A stretch of 64,000 bases of DNA from Topomyia yanbarensis. Lineage: Eukaryota; Arthropoda; Insecta; Diptera; Culicidae. Made by a program: the position numbers and the translations under genes. Each line of letters begins with the position of its first letter. Position 1 is the first letter of the stretch. Where the stretch lies: positions 303,192,504 through 303,256,503 of the forward strand of contig NC_080671.1 of assembly GCF_030247195.1 (NCBI RefSeq), read 5' to 3'. Positions 3,253-39,559 of the stretch are shown piece by piece. A model generated the notes under the pieces. That model saw only the letters and a program-made list of their open reading frames with translations, did not search any database and had not been told where the DNA came from.

Positions 3253-3676
3253 TGTCAGGGCAAGGTGAAATAATTTAAAATATTCTTTCTTTTTGATAAT
3301 CTAAAATCAATAACTTAAATTCTAAAATTGAATTAAAATTAGTCATAGGCCACTATATATTATTTACCCTAAATTAAATTGAATTCAATCTAAAATTGTA
3401 AACTTATGAGCTAGAATAGTACGAAAATGATTATCACAGGAATAAGCGAGATGCACTGAACAATGATCACATTACGATCAGTATATAAGCGATCCGGGAA
3501 ACAATACACCGGTCCGATAAAAGGGATAGATCAGACGGCTATCAAGTTTAGTTTTCAAATAAACGTTATAGCAAGCACAAGGCATATTTTTCGTCGCGAG
3601 CAATAAAGTTGCTAGTATTCAATTGTCCAATCGTTTGTAAAAGGGGCTTCATTCCGAAATCACGTACCGTGGTACA
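3253..3676 (+). repeat. Putative 3' LTR of the BEL/Pao element
   Basis: Starts TGTCAGGGC right after the purine-rich tract and contains, in the expected order, a TATA-like box (3482-3489, TATATAAG) and a polyadenylation signal AATAAA (3602-3607). The end is uncertain: a terminal CA occurs at 3659-3660 and again at 3675-3676. There is no second LTR in the window to compare with. Confidence 0.55.
3482..3489 (+). promoter_or_regulatory. TATA-like box in the putative LTR
   Basis: TATATAAG lies about 113 bases before an AATAAA at 3602, the spacing expected of a U3/R core promoter followed by the R-U5 polyadenylation signal. Confidence 0.4.
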
Positions 3677-4111
3677 TCTATCGGGAGTGTTGTACAATAA
3701 TCGATGTCAAGTACGGACGCGGTAACTATCCGGAATCGTGAAGGTCTTACCCGGCGCTTTCCAGGCAGAAAGCGGGGAAGCTAGTGATTATCGGTGCACA
3801 CATTCTGTCCGCCCTTTTTATAAAGGAGAGAAGTGGTGATCAAGTGGATCAAACCGGCAGAGACGCGCTCTGCCCACGTGCCTAAAGTGACGTGGTGGCA
3901 TTCTTGGTACGAGGCCAAAGGCCGTTAAGTAAAACCTTCGTAGTCTGGTAAATCCGAGCTCCGCTCAAACAGACACCGTACACTTTTTACCAACCCTCCA
4001 GAGAGCTCTGCGGACAAAAACGTTCGTTTCACGCATCCAAAGTACGGACAAAAAGACCAGCAATGGGAACCAAGATCCGGAAACAGAAACATAGACCCAT
4101 TAACAACACCC
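3677..4111 (+). other. Noncoding stretch before the I-clade ORF1 remnant
   Basis: GC-richer than the AT-rich DNA of the window and without a meaningful frame. By position it could be the 5' UTR and degraded start of ORF1 of the I-clade LINE. A short sequence reading CCCTTTTTATAAAGGAGAG occurs at 3813-3831. No motif proves the assignment. Confidence 0.3.
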
Positions 4112-4486
4112 ATGAACCTAAAGAACAACGGAAACGTCGGAACAAACACAGCAAGCAGAAGCCAACAAGAAACTACAGGAAAAGTAAATGACCAAGAGAA
4201 ACCCTCGACTTCAACAAAAGTGAAAGTAGGGAAAAGCATTTCCCCAGTACCACCCCTGACCAGGGAAGTGCCGGTTAATACCGATGAACCTCAGGCGGCT
4301 GCCGGTGCGGGGGGCCGTGCTTTCCCCCGGGTAAGTAACACAAACAAATCCGTCCCTCACGAATCGATTACCGCCCCAACAATCTCCACAGATCCATCAT
4401 TTTCACAAATCGCAGAAAGGACGGAGCCCTCTCACAACGCGCAGGCAGCAAACCCCGAAAAAAAATTGCGCTGCAATGGAACATAA
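4112..4486 (+). pseudogene. Probable remnant of I-clade LINE ORF1 (C-terminal part)
   Basis: A 124-residue Ser/Thr/Pro/Asn-rich, low-complexity frame that overlaps the start of ORF2 by about 25 bases. Position directly before the endonuclease, in a different frame, is that of ORF1. No CCHC zinc knuckle is visible, so either the RNA-binding part is lost or this is only the variable tail. Assignment is from position rather than sequence similarity. A GGTAAGT lies at about 4331 but nothing indicates that it is a splice site. Confidence 0.4.
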
Positions 4487-4713: not shown

Positions 4714-5409
4714 GCAGGCGTTGCCGTATCTATCCTCAGGTACGGTGGCCCGTCATGGTCAAGAGCACTGAGGGTAACCAGTTACCTACAGAAACTGGAG
4801 AGCACCTACCGCCTGATGTGCCTCAGAGTGATATCTGCCTACCACACGGTATCACACGATGCATCCTGCGTGATAGCGAGCATGATGACAGTCGGACTGG
4901 TCATTCGGGAAGATGAGGAGTGCTTCGAGCTACGTGGAAATAGAGGTGCCCGCGAGCGCACCAGGGTGACCTCGGTCGCCAGATGGCAGCGTGAGTGGGA
5001 CAACTCCTCGAAAGGTAGGTGGACCCACCGGCTGATACCTAGCATATCGAGCTGGGTGGGAAGATCCCATGGGGAAGCTCACTTCAATCTGACACAATTC
5101 CTGTTAGGCCATGGCTGTTTCCGACAGTACCTTCACAGGTTTGGGCACGCGGAAGTCCCAGCCTGCCCTGATTGCCCAGGTGTAGACGAAATTGCCGAAC
5201 ACATACTGTTCGTATGTCCTCGTTTCGACGTCGAAAGAAGAGCAATGCTTGACGTCTGTGGCTGGGACACAACCGCTGATACCCTTATTCAGCGGATGTG
5301 TCAATCGGTGGAGAAGTGGAACGCAGTCTCGACTGCAACCACCCAGATTGCCTGTAGGCTACAGGTAATTTGGCGCACCGAGCAGCAGACGGCGGGCACG
5401 ACTAACTAG
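4714..5409 (+). CDS. R1-clade LINE ORF2, C-terminal region (partial)
   Basis: Starts at the truncation point with LAGVAVSILRYGGPSW, the post-RT segment typical of R1 (SILRYGGPxW followed by RVTSYLQKL). A linker with RWQREWDNSSKGRWTHRLIP follows, then a Cys/His cluster ACPDCPGVDEIAEHILFVC near the end, where R1-clade proteins carry a zinc-knuckle-like motif. It is open for about 230 codons to TAG at 5407-5409, which I take to be the natural stop. RT and endonuclease are absent because of 5' truncation. No promoter or start codon of its own is visible. Confidence 0.8.
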   Translation, partial: AGVAVSILRYGGPSWSRALRVTSYLQKLESTYRLMCLRVISAYHTVSHDASCVIASMMTVGLVIREDEECFELRGNRGARERTRVTSVARWQREWDNSSKGRWTHRLIPSISSWVGRSHGEAHFNLTQFLLGHGCFRQYLHRFGHAEVPACPDCPGVDEIAEHILFVCPRFDVERRAMLDVCGWDTTADTLIQRMCQSVEKWNAVSTATTQIACRLQVIWRTEQQTAGTTN

Positions 5410-5655
5410 TGATTAGTTAGTTGGAGCGAAAAAGGCCGAGCGTAGAAAAAGGATTGAATGGTCTGTTCATGCTGAGGCAGGTTTGGCGCAGCGACTGGCA
5501 ACCGCGTAAGGGGTAAACCCAGCCACCCCGAAGCAAGGCAGAAGAGCGAGTGTATAGGCGTATATGTGGACTGCCTCATGCCAGGATGGGAGGGTCGTAG
5601 CGTAGTATGTTGGGATTTAGCTATCGATGCCTCGTGGCGTGGCAGAGGAGTGAAA

Positions 5656-6090
5656 GGGTGAGCATTCAAATCAGTCTCACACGGTATGTTAAGGGTGAGC
5701 ACAAAAGTCATGGTAGAGGTGAGCACAAAAGTCAGCCTCACAAGGTATGAAAACGGTGAGCACCCAAGTAAGCCTCGCATGGTATGTCAGTAGTGGGGCC
5801 GAAGAAAAATGTCCCACATGGGATGCCAGGGGGAGCGACAGGGGTATAATAGAGTGGTACGATCGAGTGTGAACCAGGTGATAGGGTGAGCATCCAAGTC
5901 AGCCGCACATGGTATGTTAGAGGCTAGCACAAAAGTAAGCCTAGCAAGGAATGAAAAAGGTGAGCACACAAGTCAGCCTCGCAAGGAATGAAAAAGGTGA
6001 GCACAAAAGTCAACCTCATGTGGAGTGTTAGAGACTGAATCAAGGTGCGATAGAGAGAGCACCCAAGTAAGCCTCATACAGGACGTATGA
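5656..6090 (+). repeat. Minisatellite in the R1-clade 3' UTR
   Basis: About nine diverged copies of a 33-37-bp unit of the form GGTGAGCACAAAAGTCAGCC, then a CTCRCAWGGTATG-like half, at roughly 5656, 5692, 5720, 5755, 5885, 5925, 5957, 5994 and 6055. Spacing is irregular, and other sequence (5780-5880) interrupts the array. Confidence 0.75.
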
Positions 6091-33339: not shown

Positions 33340-33440
33340 CAGTAAGATTCCGTTTTTGGCACGTTCCATTTTTGGCATGCTCCCATGTTGGCACACTCCG
33401 ATTTTGGCAACAAATGGGTTCCGTTTTTGGCAACATTCTT
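33340..33440 (+). repeat. Subterminal TTTTTGGCA tandem words
   Basis: Five irregular repeats built on CCRTTTTTGGCA at 17-27-base steps just inside the left end. The second tandem copy begins within this array. Confidence 0.6.
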
Positions 33441-35155
33441 GTTGTACATAATAAGTCTTTGAAAAATGTGCACTAGATATTTTTTCGTAACAATTGACAC
33501 CACAGTTGACTTTATTTCCAAACATGGGAGTCTCAAAGGCGTAAATAATTTTTTTCCAAATATTGTTAAAATTGTCTCATAGTTTCAATACATTACTGTG
33601 ATAATTTTGAGATGCTTTTCGCAATATTGTTTTAAAACAGTGTTATGCATTTAGGAGTTAACTATATTTTACACTATACGTGCATTGGCGTGCGCAAGGG
33701 GGGGGAGCTATAGCCCCCTCTAATGCTACGGAATTTAAAAAAAAAATATTTAGTATTAAACTTACTGCATATCTCATTTTGTTTAAATAAGCCATGCTAT
33801 CTTAGTTGGCGCAAGTTCATTAAAATCAGGAATCTCTATCGATAACAAGATAAGAGGAAGCGGTAACTGCAGTAAAGATTTGGTTACCGACTTAAAAATA
33901 CAAGACTTTCATTTTTTTGCTTTTATAAACTTTTTATTGCAAATGATTAATGCAGTTGGTAAACACTGATAGAATATATTCGTAAATCGCTATGAATTAG
34001 TTTCTTACTGACAATTTTCATAAAATACACGAATTTTTCGTACATGTTATGATTCATTCGTAGTTACATTGAAAAACTTTTATTTTTTTTACGAGTTTTT
34101 CGTGAAATCCACGAAACGACATTCGTTGGCTTATTACAAAACGGCTTCATTAGGCAAACGAATTGTTCACTGTTATTTACGAAAGACTTAATAATATTTA
34201 CGAGCACCATTCGTCAAACAGTCAATGTCAAAAGAGCTTCAATAGAGGTTGAATATGGAATCCTTGTTGCTATATGTCGCAGGATCTCACCGGATAGAAC
34301 AACACACACTGAATCAGCCCCTTGCTCTTTTGAAATGGTAACTGTGGCCGTCGTTTGGACAACTCCATATCAATTTTTGAATAGGGCTAATAAGATTTGT
34401 AAACAAACTTTTGTTTTGCTGATTTCTCTTAATTTGTTATAATTTCATCCTAGAAAACATTTGAAATTGATTCTACTAGGGGTAAAGATGATGATTCATA
34501 TGTATTTTTCATGAAATTCAACTCGGCAGCAGAATAATGAGCGAAATAGGTTTGTTTACAAAAATCTCTTTAGCCTTTTTGAAGAATTAATATTGAACTG
34601 ATGAATGAATACTGAACGATTGGCAGGTTCCAGCATGACAGTGGCGAAGTAATCCCCCCGCCCTTGCCCCGTAACCTGTTTAATGTCCTTGAAATGATTG
34701 ATAAATAAATATTCCAGTTATAGATTGTAGGACTCAGCATGTCCCGGAAGCGGTCTCTTATGAGCGACAACATGATCATGAATGCGACGCATTTCTTCCT
34801 TGATCGGTGTCCCAAACCATGTAGAACTTAGGGCCTTTGTTCAAAGCGGCTTGCTTTTCTACCTTGGCACGTGTTTTAATCCAACCCATCTTGAGTGCAT
34901 GAACAAGGCCATGGATTTTCAGCTTCTCCGATTTACTTGGCAACAATGAACGCTTTTGATCCGTAATATTACGAATGGGCATCTTTTCTACTTCTGATGT
35001 GAACCACTCAATCCAGGGCTGCAAAGACTAATATTAGAAAATTCACTAACGAGCGATAGTTTAAAAATTTACCTGATAATCGTCGTACTGATCATCCGTA
35101 TTTCTCCCAGCCACGATACGCTTCATGTGCCGAACGTCTTCGTCACTCAGCACAA
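33392..35155. repeat. Segment A, first copy of the large duplication
   Basis: Identical to 37360-39122 as far as compared, apart from one G in a G-run near 33698. Ends at CACAA inside a BOP1-like exon. Offset between the copies is 3968, then 3967 after the indel. Confidence 0.92.
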
Positions 35156-36410
35156 TATTTTGACGAGTTTGTAGATTCTTAACTGTTCGCCAAAAGTTCG
35201 GATCTTCCATCTTTTTCAGTAAATAATCGATGGCATCAGTTTCCGGCAGTTTGCATCTTAATCGTATCCAACGTGTTTATACTCATCGTACCAGTGCATC
35301 GGAATGTTTCCCACCGTGTTCCTTATATCCTTCTCGTCCGATGTATCTCCAGCAGCATACTCGTCTTGGTTCTTGAAGTGCGATTTTTTTTCTGGGAAGA
35401 CACCTACGCCGTTGAAATATGGATAAATTGGCTTAATTTGCTCGCCTAGTCACATTACTTTCAACCTATATGCATCTTACCTCGTCCGATTTATAAAAAT
35501 CGCTGGCACTTTCCTGACCTGCGGATTCCGTTGTCTTTAGACTCGATTTGGGACCGTTCTCATTTTCCGTCTCCGATTCCAATGAGGTAAACCAAAAATT
35601 ACTGAAAGCACGTGCAAACGACTATCAAACATACCACGCGATTTCCTGAACCTCTTTCGCTTCCAGTTGATCCAGAATCCGGAGCAATACGGATTTAGTT
35701 GAGCCATCGCGAACTGCTCGTTGGTTTTGTATGAGAAAGTTTGAGTTTTTCTCTACCGGAGCGATGTCAAAATATTATTAAATACGACAACTTCCCTAAG
35801 ATGAACGAATGAATTCAAGGGGCCAACGAAAACGAAATTCGCTTTTCTAAGGTAAGCGAAATTAATTTGTGCGACCAACGAAATCTTTCATCATATACAT
35901 AAACATTTATTGATATAAACGAATCACTTCATTTCATTCACGAAACTTTTGTTCATTAAGCGGCCATTTCTTCGTACCACAATAAAATCGATTTGGCCAC
36001 ATCGATTATTTTAAATTAAAAAAAATCGATGTTGTCAAACATCGATCCCATAAAATCGACTGAAAACAATAAGAGGCTAATAATTACGAAAACTTTACTA
36101 AGATAAACGAAATAAATTCAGGCCACCAACGAAATCGTTCGTAATATACACAAGCGTTTATTCAAATTAACAAAACATTTCGTTTCATTCACGAAAAATA
36201 AAGTCGTTATCAACGATAACATTCGTGCAGTGTACATTAAATGTGTAAAATTTGCGAAAGCTTTAGTTCACCACGCGGCCATTCTTGTTCATGAAATGAA
36301 CGAAACCTACTGTTTACAATGCACGAAAATACTTCGTTGCAGAAAACGACGAATGAATTCGTGCATTGCATGATCGATTTCATTATATTTACGAATTTAT
36401 ATTATCAGTG
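33964..36410. mobile_element. TIR element carrying a BOP1 gene fragment
   Basis: The left end CACTGATAGAATATATTCGT and the complement of the right end CACTGATAATATAAATTCGT match at 21 of 24 positions over the full terminal repeat. Both subterminal regions (33985-34220 and 35800-36405) are dense in ACGAA/TTCGT words. The centre is an intron-containing BOP1-like copy on the minus strand. No transposase frame was seen. CACTG ends suggest a CACTA/Chapaev-like group, which is weak. The flanks offer only AA as a possible duplication. Confidence 0.65.
34590..35745 (-). pseudogene. BOP1: BOP1-like gene fragment with introns (ribosome biogenesis protein)
   Basis: BOP1 works in the PeBoW complex (PES1-BOP1-WDR12) in the nucleolus for 60S subunit assembly. 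Read on the minus strand, exons are 35481-35601 (acidic: SDE end), 35073-35403 ([35 protein letters not shown]) and 34590-35018 (PWIEWFTSEVEKMPIRN, VHALKMGWIK, KFYMVWDTD, RRIHDHVVAHKRPLPGHAES), all within the BOP1 N-terminal domain. A jump to GRGDYFATVM follows, which belongs to the WD40 part. GT-AG introns of 54 and 77 bases remain (and a doubtful 33-base one, 35602-35634, with a less certain first exon above it), so it is a DNA copy rather than a retrocopy. Frameshifts occur after HVGYD and after WDTDQ, a stop follows AESYN, and coding blocks are missing, so it is dead. Confidence 0.82.
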
Positions 36411-36919
36411 AAGGCATATGGAAAGCGAGAACAAGAGAAACTTTCAACTTTCTTCTAAAACTTAACAGTAATATAATCTTAGAAGAACTATAAGGATGTT
36501 ATTTATTTGGATAACAACTTATTCTACTACTATCTTCTTTTCATTTTAACGACATTAAATTAGCTAGAAATTACTAAGTGCGAAAAGTTTAAAAAAAAAG
36601 TTATGAAGGGATTTGGAATATTCAGATAGGAAAGCTGTCGGTCTTATGGTCTCATGGTAAAGAGGGACGACTCTGCTGTTGCCGTGAAACATGGTAAATT
36701 TAAGCAATTCATAGTAACTCTGCCTAAGCACGACTCCTATCAGCAGAAGATAAAAAATTAGTCCGAAAACTTTCAAGCCTGTTCCTACCCAAGTAACAAT
36801 TGAAGTATTATAGCACGCTACAAGTGCAATCTTAGTTTAATAGTGAATACCAAAAAATATATGTTTAAATATTTTATTTCATGGAAAGCATGAGATATAT
36901 AATTCTGCCTTTAGGACAA
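35156..36919. other. Segment X, present only in the first copy
   Basis: 1764 bases between two ACAA words (35152-35155 and 36916-36919). In the second copy the sequences on either side are joined at a single ACAA. X holds the upstream BOP1-like exons and the right end of the TIR element. 36411-36915 shows no gene. Confidence 0.8.
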
Positions 36920-37356
36920 AAGGTTTTGGTGAACGATCAACAAGAGATTGCCTGATCACAACGTAGCAAAAAGTTCATAAGGTGATCAGTTCAGCAGGCA
37001 CATCGGAAAACATACGAGGAAACTGGTTCGATGTGGAGTGCCAACGAGCAATAGATGAGAAAAATCAGACTAGGAGCTTATTGCTCGCACTGGTTATATG
37101 TTAGAACCAGGTATCTGCTACGCCGCCATGATTTCAAAGCCAAGATCTAAAACGTCGCGTTAAGGTCGATCCACAATTAACAGAATCGATTTCATTCGAG
37201 ACAACTTTGCGATAGTCAAGTTCGTTGAATTTGTTGATGCATAATGGTGTAAAGTTTTTGTTTTTCGTCGACATGTCCTAAACAACACTTTCCATCAATT
37301 AGCGGTCCAATATATTCACTTTTTAACAAACAGCTAAACATTGAGTCATACTGTAC
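36916..37356. repeat. Segment B, first copy
   Basis: Repeated at 39119-39559 with constant offset 2203. Ends CATACTGTAC. Confidence 0.92.
36985..37165 (+). pseudogene. LINE ORF2 linker fragment
   Basis: NIRGNWFDVECQRAIDEKN reads like the W-F-D-x-E-C motif and charged helix between endonuclease and RT in jockey- and I-type LINEs. About 45 residues with a stop inside; no RT follows. The repeat copy is at 39188-39368. Confidence 0.5.
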
Positions 37357-37359
37357 ACA

Positions 37360-39122
37360 CACACTCCGATTTTGGCAACAAATGGGTTCCGTTTTTGGCA
37401 ACATTCTTGTTGTACATAATAAGTCTTTGAAAAATGTGCACTAGATATTTTTTCGTAACAATTGACACCACAGTTGACTTTATTTCCAAACATGGGAGTC
37501 TCAAAGGCGTAAATAATTTTTTTCCAAATATTGTTAAAATTGTCTCATAGTTTCAATACATTACTGTGATAATTTTGAGATGCTTTTCGCAATATTGTTT
37601 TAAAACAGTGTTATGCATTTAGGAGTTAACTATATTTTACACTATACGTGCATTGGCGTGCGCAAGGGGGGGAGCTATAGCCCCCTCTAATGCTACGGAA
37701 TTTAAAAAAAAAATATTTAGTATTAAACTTACTGCATATCTCATTTTGTTTAAATAAGCCATGCTATCTTAGTTGGCGCAAGTTCATTAAAATCAGGAAT
37801 CTCTATCGATAACAAGATAAGAGGAAGCGGTAACTGCAGTAAAGATTTGGTTACCGACTTAAAAATACAAGACTTTCATTTTTTTGCTTTTATAAACTTT
37901 TTATTGCAAATGATTAATGCAGTTGGTAAACACTGATAGAATATATTCGTAAATCGCTATGAATTAGTTTCTTACTGACAATTTTCATAAAATACACGAA
38001 TTTTTCGTACATGTTATGATTCATTCGTAGTTACATTGAAAAACTTTTATTTTTTTTACGAGTTTTTCGTGAAATCCACGAAACGACATTCGTTGGCTTA
38101 TTACAAAACGGCTTCATTAGGCAAACGAATTGTTCACTGTTATTTACGAAAGACTTAATAATATTTACGAGCACCATTCGTCAAACAGTCAATGTCAAAA
38201 GAGCTTCAATAGAGGTTGAATATGGAATCCTTGTTGCTATATGTCGCAGGATCTCACCGGATAGAACAACACACACTGAATCAGCCCCTTGCTCTTTTGA
38301 AATGGTAACTGTGGCCGTCGTTTGGACAACTCCATATCAATTTTTGAATAGGGCTAATAAGATTTGTAAACAAACTTTTGTTTTGCTGATTTCTCTTAAT
38401 TTGTTATAATTTCATCCTAGAAAACATTTGAAATTGATTCTACTAGGGGTAAAGATGATGATTCATATGTATTTTTCATGAAATTCAACTCGGCAGCAGA
38501 ATAATGAGCGAAATAGGTTTGTTTACAAAAATCTCTTTAGCCTTTTTGAAGAATTAATATTGAACTGATGAATGAATACTGAACGATTGGCAGGTTCCAG
38601 CATGACAGTGGCGAAGTAATCCCCCCGCCCTTGCCCCGTAACCTGTTTAATGTCCTTGAAATGATTGATAAATAAATATTCCAGTTATAGATTGTAGGAC
38701 TCAGCATGTCCCGGAAGCGGTCTCTTATGAGCGACAACATGATCATGAATGCGACGCATTTCTTCCTTGATCGGTGTCCCAAACCATGTAGAACTTAGGG
38801 CCTTTGTTCAAAGCGGCTTGCTTTTCTACCTTGGCACGTGTTTTAATCCAACCCATCTTGAGTGCATGAACAAGGCCATGGATTTTCAGCTTCTCCGATT
38901 TACTTGGCAACAATGAACGCTTTTGATCCGTAATATTACGAATGGGCATCTTTTCTACTTCTGATGTGAACCACTCAATCCAGGGCTGCAAAGACTAATA
39001 TTAGAAAATTCACTAACGAGCGATAGTTTAAAAATTTACCTGATAATCGTCGTACTGATCATCCGTATTTCTCCCAGCCACGATACGCTTCATGTGCCGA
39101 ACGTCTTCGTCACTCAGCACAA
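37360..39122. repeat. Segment A, second copy of the large duplication
   Basis: Second copy of 33392-35155. It includes the left end of the TIR element (37931) and the last BOP1-like exons, then stops within an exon and joins segment B. Near-identity means a very recent event or a haplotype/assembly artefact. Confidence 0.92.
38557..39119 (-). pseudogene. BOP1: BOP1-like gene fragment, second truncated copy
   Basis: Repeats the two most downstream exons of the fragment at 34590-35155, including the 54-base intron, and ends at the microhomology junction. The upstream exons are deleted. Carries the same frameshift and stop as the first copy, so the lesions predate the duplication. Confidence 0.8.
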
Positions 39123-39559
39123 AAGGTTTTGGTGAACGATCAACAAGAGATTGCCTGATCACAACGTAGCAAAAAGTTCATAAGGTGATCAGTTCAGCAG
39201 GCACATCGGAAAACATACGAGGAAACTGGTTCGATGTGGAGTGCCAACGAGCAATAGATGAGAAAAATCAGACTAGGAGCTTATTGCTCGCACTGGTTAT
39301 ATGTTAGAACCAGGTATCTGCTACGCCGCCATGATTTCAAAGCCAAGATCTAAAACGTCGCGTTAAGGTCGATCCACAATTAACAGAATCGATTTCATTC
39401 GAGACAACTTTGCGATAGTCAAGTTCGTTGAATTTGTTGATGCATAATGGTGTAAAGTTTTTGTTTTTCGTCGACATGTCCTAAACAACACTTTCCATCA
39501 ATTAGCGGTCCAATATATTCACTTTTTAACAAACAGCTAAACATTGAGTCATACTGTAC
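39119..39559. repeat. Segment B, second copy
   Basis: See 36916-37356. Followed by non-duplicated sequence from 39560. Confidence 0.92.

Follow-up and report, generated by a model that had tools for sequence, protein, structure and literature searches.

The BOP1-carrying element and its surroundings

The window analyzed here is a stretch of 64,000 nucleotides on contig C2 of the 1.168-Gb genome of Topomyia yanbarensis, and positions given without a contig or locus name are those of the window. At 33964-36410 lies a complete terminal inverted repeat (TIR) element that encloses, on the minus strand, a decayed piece of BOP1. Its left TIR (CACTGATAGAATATATTCGTAAAT, plus strand, 33964-33987) and right TIR (minus strand, 36387-36410) are 24 nt long and complementary at 21 of 24 positions (88%), as the original prediction had stated, and the AA dinucleotide found outside the left TIR recurs directly after the right TIR, forming a 2-bp target-site duplication. 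The left TIR belongs to an ACGAA-rich subterminal zone (33964-34278; element positions 1-315) that is common to copies with and without BOP1, and a second ACGAA-rich zone (35776-36410) contains ~100-bp and longer repeated units with the right TIR at its end. The predicted enrichment on both sides was confirmed by 1,000 shuffles: ACGAA/TTCGT occurs 10 times in the left 315 bp (shuffle mean 0.63, maximum 4) and 20 times in the right 635 bp (mean 1.29, maximum 6), and it is not enriched in the middle 1,497 bp (2 occurrences; mean 3.35) or in the flanking 2-kb controls (3 and 4 occurrences; means 4.30 and 4.15).

Two further components were recognized within the element. A protein-like minus-strand stretch at 35643-35775, which we call piece X, is an older piece of the element and not BOP1, being present also in most sampled copies that carry no BOP1. 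No convincing match to piece X was found in Pfam (best E value 0.13), PDB, NCBIfam or the protein collection, and it may be a third captured piece. A 231-bp insert nested in the BOP1 sequence (34365-34595) has inner inverted arms (TTTGTAAACAAAC / GTTTGTTTACAAA) and perhaps a duplication of 4 bp (AACT); it is unrelated to BOP1 and missing from those carriers that could be aligned on both sides of it.

A second, truncated copy, consisting of the left end and part of BOP1, lies at 37931-39122. Sequence 33392-35155 is repeated at 37360-39122 (99.94% identity) and 36913-37356 at 39116-39559 (99.8% identity), the second unit of this 33392-39559 tandem duplication being devoid of 35156-36912. The second copy was rejected as an independent insertion, being the product of this local tandem duplication and not of transposition; the duplication itself may be genuine and young, or an error of the assembly.

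The BOP1 piece is a genomic segment with internal deletions

The BOP1 piece occupies 34279-35643 on the minus strand and replaces a ~75-bp core of the BOP1-less elements. Among six minus-strand pieces submitted to domain models, three matched BOP1NT (PF08145), with E values of 1.1e-16, 7.3e-13 and 8.2e-4 (the third below the curated cut-off), and the longest submitted piece matched BOP1/ERB1 chains in PDB, in agreement with the predicted BOP1-like sequence on this strand. The span originally given for it, 34590-35745, does contain BOP1 similarity, and its limits had to be revised to ~34285-35643.

The best PF08145 place in the genome, C3:269.46 Mb (locus L029), is on another large contig than the window and holds an open BOP1 gene across four exons with splice sites; the gene model (708 amino acids, N-terminal part) is 100% identical to the NCBI Topomyia yanbarensis BOP1 protein of 857 amino acids. 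Alignment of the window copy with this functional locus, as the original prediction had proposed, allowed us to recognize intron 2 and part of intron 1 and to map the lesions. Exon 1 and upstream DNA are found at 35481-35643 (minus strand, as are all BOP1 parts), where an 80-column deletion takes out the start codon. Intron 1 survives as a 43-position remnant (35415-35480) that has kept its donor and lost its acceptor and most of its length, and exon 2 as its 3' part (35073-35414), the acidic 5' half being deleted. Intron 2 (35019-35072) is complete from GT to AG, with 4 differences from the parent in 54 positions. It is followed by the 5' half of exon 3 (34704-35018) and by a remnant of exon 4 (34285-34704) that covers 185 of 488 positions and is split by the 231-bp insert; the remaining exon 3 sequence, the whole of intron 3 and a portion of exon 4 are deleted as a block of ~700 bp (parent ~3616-4314). 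There are also frameshifting deletions of 13 and 5 bp and one 3-bp deletion. The frameshifts and missing blocks noted in the original prediction are thus real, the blocks being the ~700-bp block, the first half of exon 2 and most of intron 1, whereas the count of at least two GT-AG introns was too generous, as intron 2 alone is whole, intron 1 is a remnant and intron 3 is gone.

Comparison of the carriers with the parent locus showed that the captured segment is a contiguous 2.65-kb piece (2,653 bp, L029 ~6077 to ~3425) that includes three introns, starts upstream of the ATG (L029 5984) and stops near the end of exon 4. In the carriers examined, no match to the rest of L029 was found except two matches each, to its far part, in L039 and L046. 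No element ends were found in 9.9 kb around the parent gene. Intron 2 is kept in 21 of 24 projected sequences and intron 3 in 11 of 24 (in L043 with 5 sites only), and intron 1 is partly kept in L010 and L043 (141 and 145 of 336 sites). These results bear out the proposed capture of a genomic piece of BOP1, given that introns and DNA upstream of the ATG were retained, and the deletions relative to L029 agree with the proposed loss of internal parts after capture. A processed retrocopy, that is, a BOP1 cDNA retroposed into the element, would be conceivable inasmuch as an RNA route seems possible in this family, where copies of a second gene, TXNL1, show no introns and are followed by AATAAA and an A-run (see below). 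However, the retention of introns 1 (in part), 2 and 3 and of DNA upstream of the ATG refutes this explanation for BOP1, and we give it next to no credence.

BOP1 was captured once and the chimera is present at many sites

A genome search with PF08145 returned 65 rows, which were grouped into the gene and 23 other places (C1:45.937 and C1:45.940 Mb being counted as one place). Element sequence adjoins BOP1 at all 23, in the form of the left part at 22 and of the right zone only at L010. Two further carriers, L031 and L032, have no PF08145 row. There are three near-duplicate pairs, i.e. the pair in the window, C2:457 Mb/C626 and C1:106.31/106.33 Mb, so that the carriers represent ~20 independent insertions. 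In the locus L044 (C1:45.935-45.943 Mb), two BOP1 blocks lie between one left end and one right end; perhaps one carrier is nested in, or duplicated within, another.

L047 and L048, two copies without BOP1, share their ends with the carriers, and relative to such copies BOP1, which lies between positions 316 and 1680 of the element, takes the place of ~75 bp. The junctions agree in nine carriers on the left and eight on the right, judged against five and six BOP1-less copies, respectively, with small exceptions such as a short deletion in L037; microhomology at the junctions is 0-2 bp by eye, and none is long. In a tree built on the first 315 bp, 19 carriers were separated from 11 non-carriers with a branch support of 100/99. 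Sixteen of these 19 were chosen by similarity to the left end of the window element, a sampling that favors a clade and is not unbiased, and two, L012 and L025, came from the domain search. The common junctions in 8-9 carriers and the single clade of 19 indicate that BOP1 was captured once. Several carriers have deletions in common, e.g. of parent 3792-4106 or 5047-5758, and most other carriers are without parent 5964-6023, a 60-bp stretch that holds the start codon.

All 12 elements whose right end is complete, 1.2-4.0 kb in length, have matching 2-bp flanks; right ends were taken from retrieved copies, and for this count the end of L040 was set one base beyond the alignment. The dinucleotides are TA (6), TG (2), CA (2, representing one duplicated locus), CT (1) and AA (1), and the insertion sites are otherwise different, except that L041 and L042 have a common flank. 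Among family members sampled on contig C1, duplications match in L049, L052, L054 and L056, L053 has no clear duplication, and L050, L051 and L055 show no right end in the stretch read. The flanks of L045 mismatch (TA/CA). Together, the duplications and the copy number point to mobility of the element.

The same data speak to the possibility that the locus is a segmental duplication or a degraded BOP1 paralogue that came to lie between repeats by chance. A local tandem duplication does adjoin the element, and the pairs C626/C2:457 Mb and C1:106.31/106.33 Mb do resemble duplicates. Nevertheless, all carriers aligned have BOP1 similarity ending at two constant points, the host flanks differ from the gene locus (the matches of L039 and L046 to far L029 look like unrelated repeats), and the insertions have different flanks with 2-bp duplications. 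We therefore rejected this explanation, to which we assign only a very small probability. Two outcomes had been named in advance as pointing to it, that every copy with these ends lacks BOP1 or that BOP1 similarity extends past the TIRs into the flanks; instead, many such copies carry BOP1, and its similarity stops at the two junctions in the carriers aligned.

The BOP1 piece shows no clear coding constraint

Fixed differences, i.e. those between the gene and the commonest letter among the copies, amount to 38/539, 30/538 and 50/540 at codon positions 1, 2 and 3 (7.1, 5.6 and 9.3%), to 3/43, 2/54 and 2/58 in introns 1, 2 and 3 (3-7%), and are highest upstream of the gene (7/54). The rates at codon positions 1 and 2 thus come close to that at position 3, which is the pattern of a piece free of coding constraint; the rates in introns 2 and 3, measured on few sites, are lower than that at codon position 3, so that strict neutrality cannot be claimed. 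The BOP1 piece has no clear coding constraint and behaves as a passenger. The median difference between carriers and gene is 9.4% (22 sequences), against 5.8% for carriers compared among themselves (229 pairs), in a set in which L017 overlaps L044 and from which L024, L031 and L042 were left out. These values indicate that the capture is older than the spread.

A large TIR family also carries TXNL1

Searches of the genome for the left-type TIR found 686 + 670 = 1,356 sites with 24 nt and at most one mismatch, and 868 + 861 = 1,729 sites with 23 nt and at most two mismatches; the reversed TIR, used as a control, gave 0 sites. We read the interior at 68 C1 sites with a perfect TIR, among the sites listed, 8 of them long and 60 short (451 bp each), so that the counts refer to C1 only and genes deeper than the 451-bp stretch would escape. 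Of the 60 short sites, 45 contain the older core or piece X, 9 contain sequence of thioredoxin-like 1 (TXNL1), one is subterminal only, and 5 have content other than core, X, TXNL1 or BOP1. All 8 long sites have parts of the core and of piece X, and none has TXNL1 or BOP1. BOP1 was found at 0 of the 68 sampled sites. The copies with these ends differ in their interiors (core/X, TXNL1 or BOP1), an outcome that the original prediction had named as support for a capturing family.

The nine TXNL1 sites are L071, L073, L083, L086, L091, L103, L107, L109 and L116. Four of them (L073, L091, L083 and L071) were extended as L097-L100, and each of these has a minus-strand TXNL1 frame that runs from the ATG into the PITH domain, with the right TIR beyond it. 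No introns were visible in the frames of these four copies. The end of the PITH domain is kept in L073, L083, L086 and L091 and gone in L071, and 3' of the stop there is an AATAAA followed, except in L073, by a short A-run and piece X. In TXNL1 carriers, piece X appears as a 60-amino-acid frame (M...DIAPAEKNS...). In each of the four extended copies, a stop, frameshifts or deletions disrupt the frame. Copy-specific changes in their first 189 codons number 11/596, 8/596 and 5/600 at codon positions 1, 2 and 3, a distribution that gives no hint of coding constraint after the spread. Among the matches listed, the TXNL1 protein is 75-78% identical to TXNL1 of the mosquitoes Uranotaenia and Anopheles, and up to 81% identical to other sequences. 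By eye, the NCBI protein P0187 ("thioredoxin-like protein 1 [Topomyia yanbarensis]", 222 amino acids) is the same as the frame of L100. A further entry, P0206, looks like another annotated TXNL1 copy.

TXNL1 at 9 of 68 sites, taken with the BOP1 carriers, indicates that one TIR family holds at least two host genes. The original proposal of a gene-capturing family is therefore strengthened as to the family, which has a second host gene, and has to be narrowed as to BOP1, whose carriers form a small subfamily that derives from one capture. The TXNL1 frame would have arisen as a retrocopy or from an intronless parent, and extrapolation from 9 of 68 sites on one contig suggests that ~200 copies carry it.

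As to the order in which the cargoes were acquired, TXNL1 and piece X might be the oldest cargo and most copies deletion products, BOP1 having later replaced the core beside X in a serial capture. Piece X does adjoin TXNL1 in its carriers, and the commonest form has the core or X with TXNL1 absent from the stretch read (45 of 60); against this, no clear duplication or deletion scar was seen by eye at the TXNL1 site. We regard serial capture as a serious, somewhat doubtful alternative.

Transposase and superfamily

No transposase was recognized inside the element copies read, only part of which were searched with domain models. Transposase fragments with DDE_Tnp_4 and HTH_Tnp_4 domains, which are presumably PIF/ISL2EU-like, are located ~0.9-2.1 kb past the right TIR of L097/L101 (C1:51.94 Mb). 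As a partner of the family this transposase was rejected for want of proof: it lies outside the element, and no pair of ends to match was found on its two sides.

The ends and duplications of the family fit neither hAT elements, whose duplications are 8 bp, nor strict TA insertion, nor Mutator-like elements (MULEs). Only 6 of 12 duplications are TA, the other 6 being different from the TA-only pattern of Tc1/mariner, and the 24-bp TIRs and 2-bp duplications depart from the TIRs of >100 bp and duplications of 8-10 bp of Mutator-like elements. Helitrons are not known to have TIRs or duplications, and this element has both. Two-base duplications and CACTG termini are compatible with some ISL2EU/PIF-Harbinger or CACTA-like groups. 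It is about an even bet, in our view, that the family belongs to a known superfamily of this kind, with a complete autonomous copy in the genome and the gene pieces as ordinary Pack-type cargo. Besides the termini, the DDE_Tnp_4 + HTH_Tnp_4 transposase that begins ~0.9 kb past the right TIR in L097/L101 would favor this assignment; its position outside the element, with no matching end pair found around it, and the failure to recognize a transposase inside the copies read, which were partly domain-searched, argue against it.

Relation to known gene-capturing elements

The copies have the features by which Pack-TIRs of animals are recognized: both ends of one TIR element flank host sequence, the parent copy of BOP1 is elsewhere and has no element ends within the 9.9 kb around it, introns 1 (in part), 2 and 3 among the copies distinguish the BOP1 cargo from a retrocopy, and one chimera occurs at several sites with distinct duplications. 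In the accessible text of Tan et al. 2021 (PMC8277862), animal Pack-TIRs are likewise host sequences between the ends of one TIR element with the parent elsewhere, and their multicopy cases have distinct duplications for each copy and a parent far from the copies. That text reports 370 Pack-TIRs in 100 animal reference genomes, none of them in insects, and four multicopy cases only, its worked example comprising three copies; it also gives four copies for Ssk-FB4 of flies (PMC8277862). In contrast to the cases described there, BOP1 occurs in the present genome at 23 places in addition to the gene itself, and the family also includes copies with a second gene. The window copy falls outside the filter of Tan et al. 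(PMC8277862), which asks for 80-120% of the length of the parent piece between the ends and for minIdentity 90, as it aligns over 1,105 sites of the 2,653-bp parent piece and is 9.1% different; this filter selects recent captures and is no definition of a Pack-TIR.

In Aedes aegypti, according to the portions available of the Muta1 paper, ~20% of Muta1 derivatives contain host-gene sequence, and these are also non-autonomous TIR elements of a mosquito (PMC5225508). Muta1 is Mutator-like, typically with TIRs >100 bp and duplications of 8-10 bp (PMC5225508), as opposed to the 24 bp and 2 bp found here. The mosquito setting of the original prediction was therefore correct and not a first, since Mutator-like elements with gene fragments have been published for Aedes aegypti (PMC5225508, in the text available). 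The ATon elements of the same mosquito are similar in being abundant, non-autonomous TIR elements with no superfamily named and a dinucleotide at the site; they are <500 bp and 'AT'-specific, and the ATon text that was accessible contains neither 'captur' nor 'host gene' (PMC3422177), whereas the 12 complete elements described here are 1.2-4.0 kb and have the sites TA, TG, CA, CT and AA. Plant Pack-MULEs, as cited in the excerpts of PMC8277862 and PMC5225508, also capture gene pieces as DNA and then amplify them; they belong to another transposon superfamily and another host. Thus, as far as these partial texts go, Pack-TIRs in animals and the Muta1 cargo in Aedes aegypti make the kind already known, also in a mosquito (PMC8277862, PMC5225508). 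We found no published description of the present TIR family in a search that largely covered literature outside subscription journals. To judge by that literature, novelty lies in the family itself and in the number of its copies, in a capture whose parent is available for comparison, and in the presence of two host genes within a single family. These comparisons support its classification as a multicopy Pack-type TIR family, known in kind and unusual in scale.

A model for capture and spread

Altogether, we estimate a probability of about 90% that this is a non-autonomous TIR family in which a single DNA-level capture of BOP1 was followed by trans-mobilized spread, and which holds TXNL1 as a second host gene. 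The reading draws on the ends, the duplications, the common junctions, the parent gene, the one clade, the lack of clear coding constraint and the second gene, all of which were observed. The element would be a non-autonomous cut-and-paste transposon, belonging to a large mosquito family whose TIRs are 24 bp and whose duplications are 2 bp long. In a founder copy, ~75 bp of the middle would have been lost and the contiguous 2.65-kb genomic piece of BOP1 gained, most likely during repair of a break within the element for which the BOP1 locus served as the template, be it by gap repair or by template switching. With a transposase supplied in trans, the chimera would then have reached many sites, where copies lost internal blocks and some deleted forms probably moved further. 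The BOP1 piece would be a passenger that yields no working protein, and TXNL1, as most of a frame without visible introns, would ride in a separate and apparently larger subfamily.

Gene capture by TIR elements is well known in plants and sparsely documented in animals, where multicopy cases are few. Since the parent gene, the pre-capture form, the junctions and >20 descendants are present in one genome, the relative age, the order of deletions and the mode of capture can be read directly. The match by eye between an NCBI "thioredoxin-like protein 1" and a frameshifted, transposon-borne copy is a caution for annotation. Finally, it is a tentative proposition, to which we give slightly less than even odds, that a single TIR family of a sabethine mosquito is a repeated carrier of host genes, with most of an RNA-derived, intronless TXNL1 frame in ~200 copies, of which one or more are annotated as a gene, and a DNA-derived BOP1 on a separate branch. 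If true, two acquisitions by two routes would offer a natural experiment on the gain of cargo by animal TIR elements.
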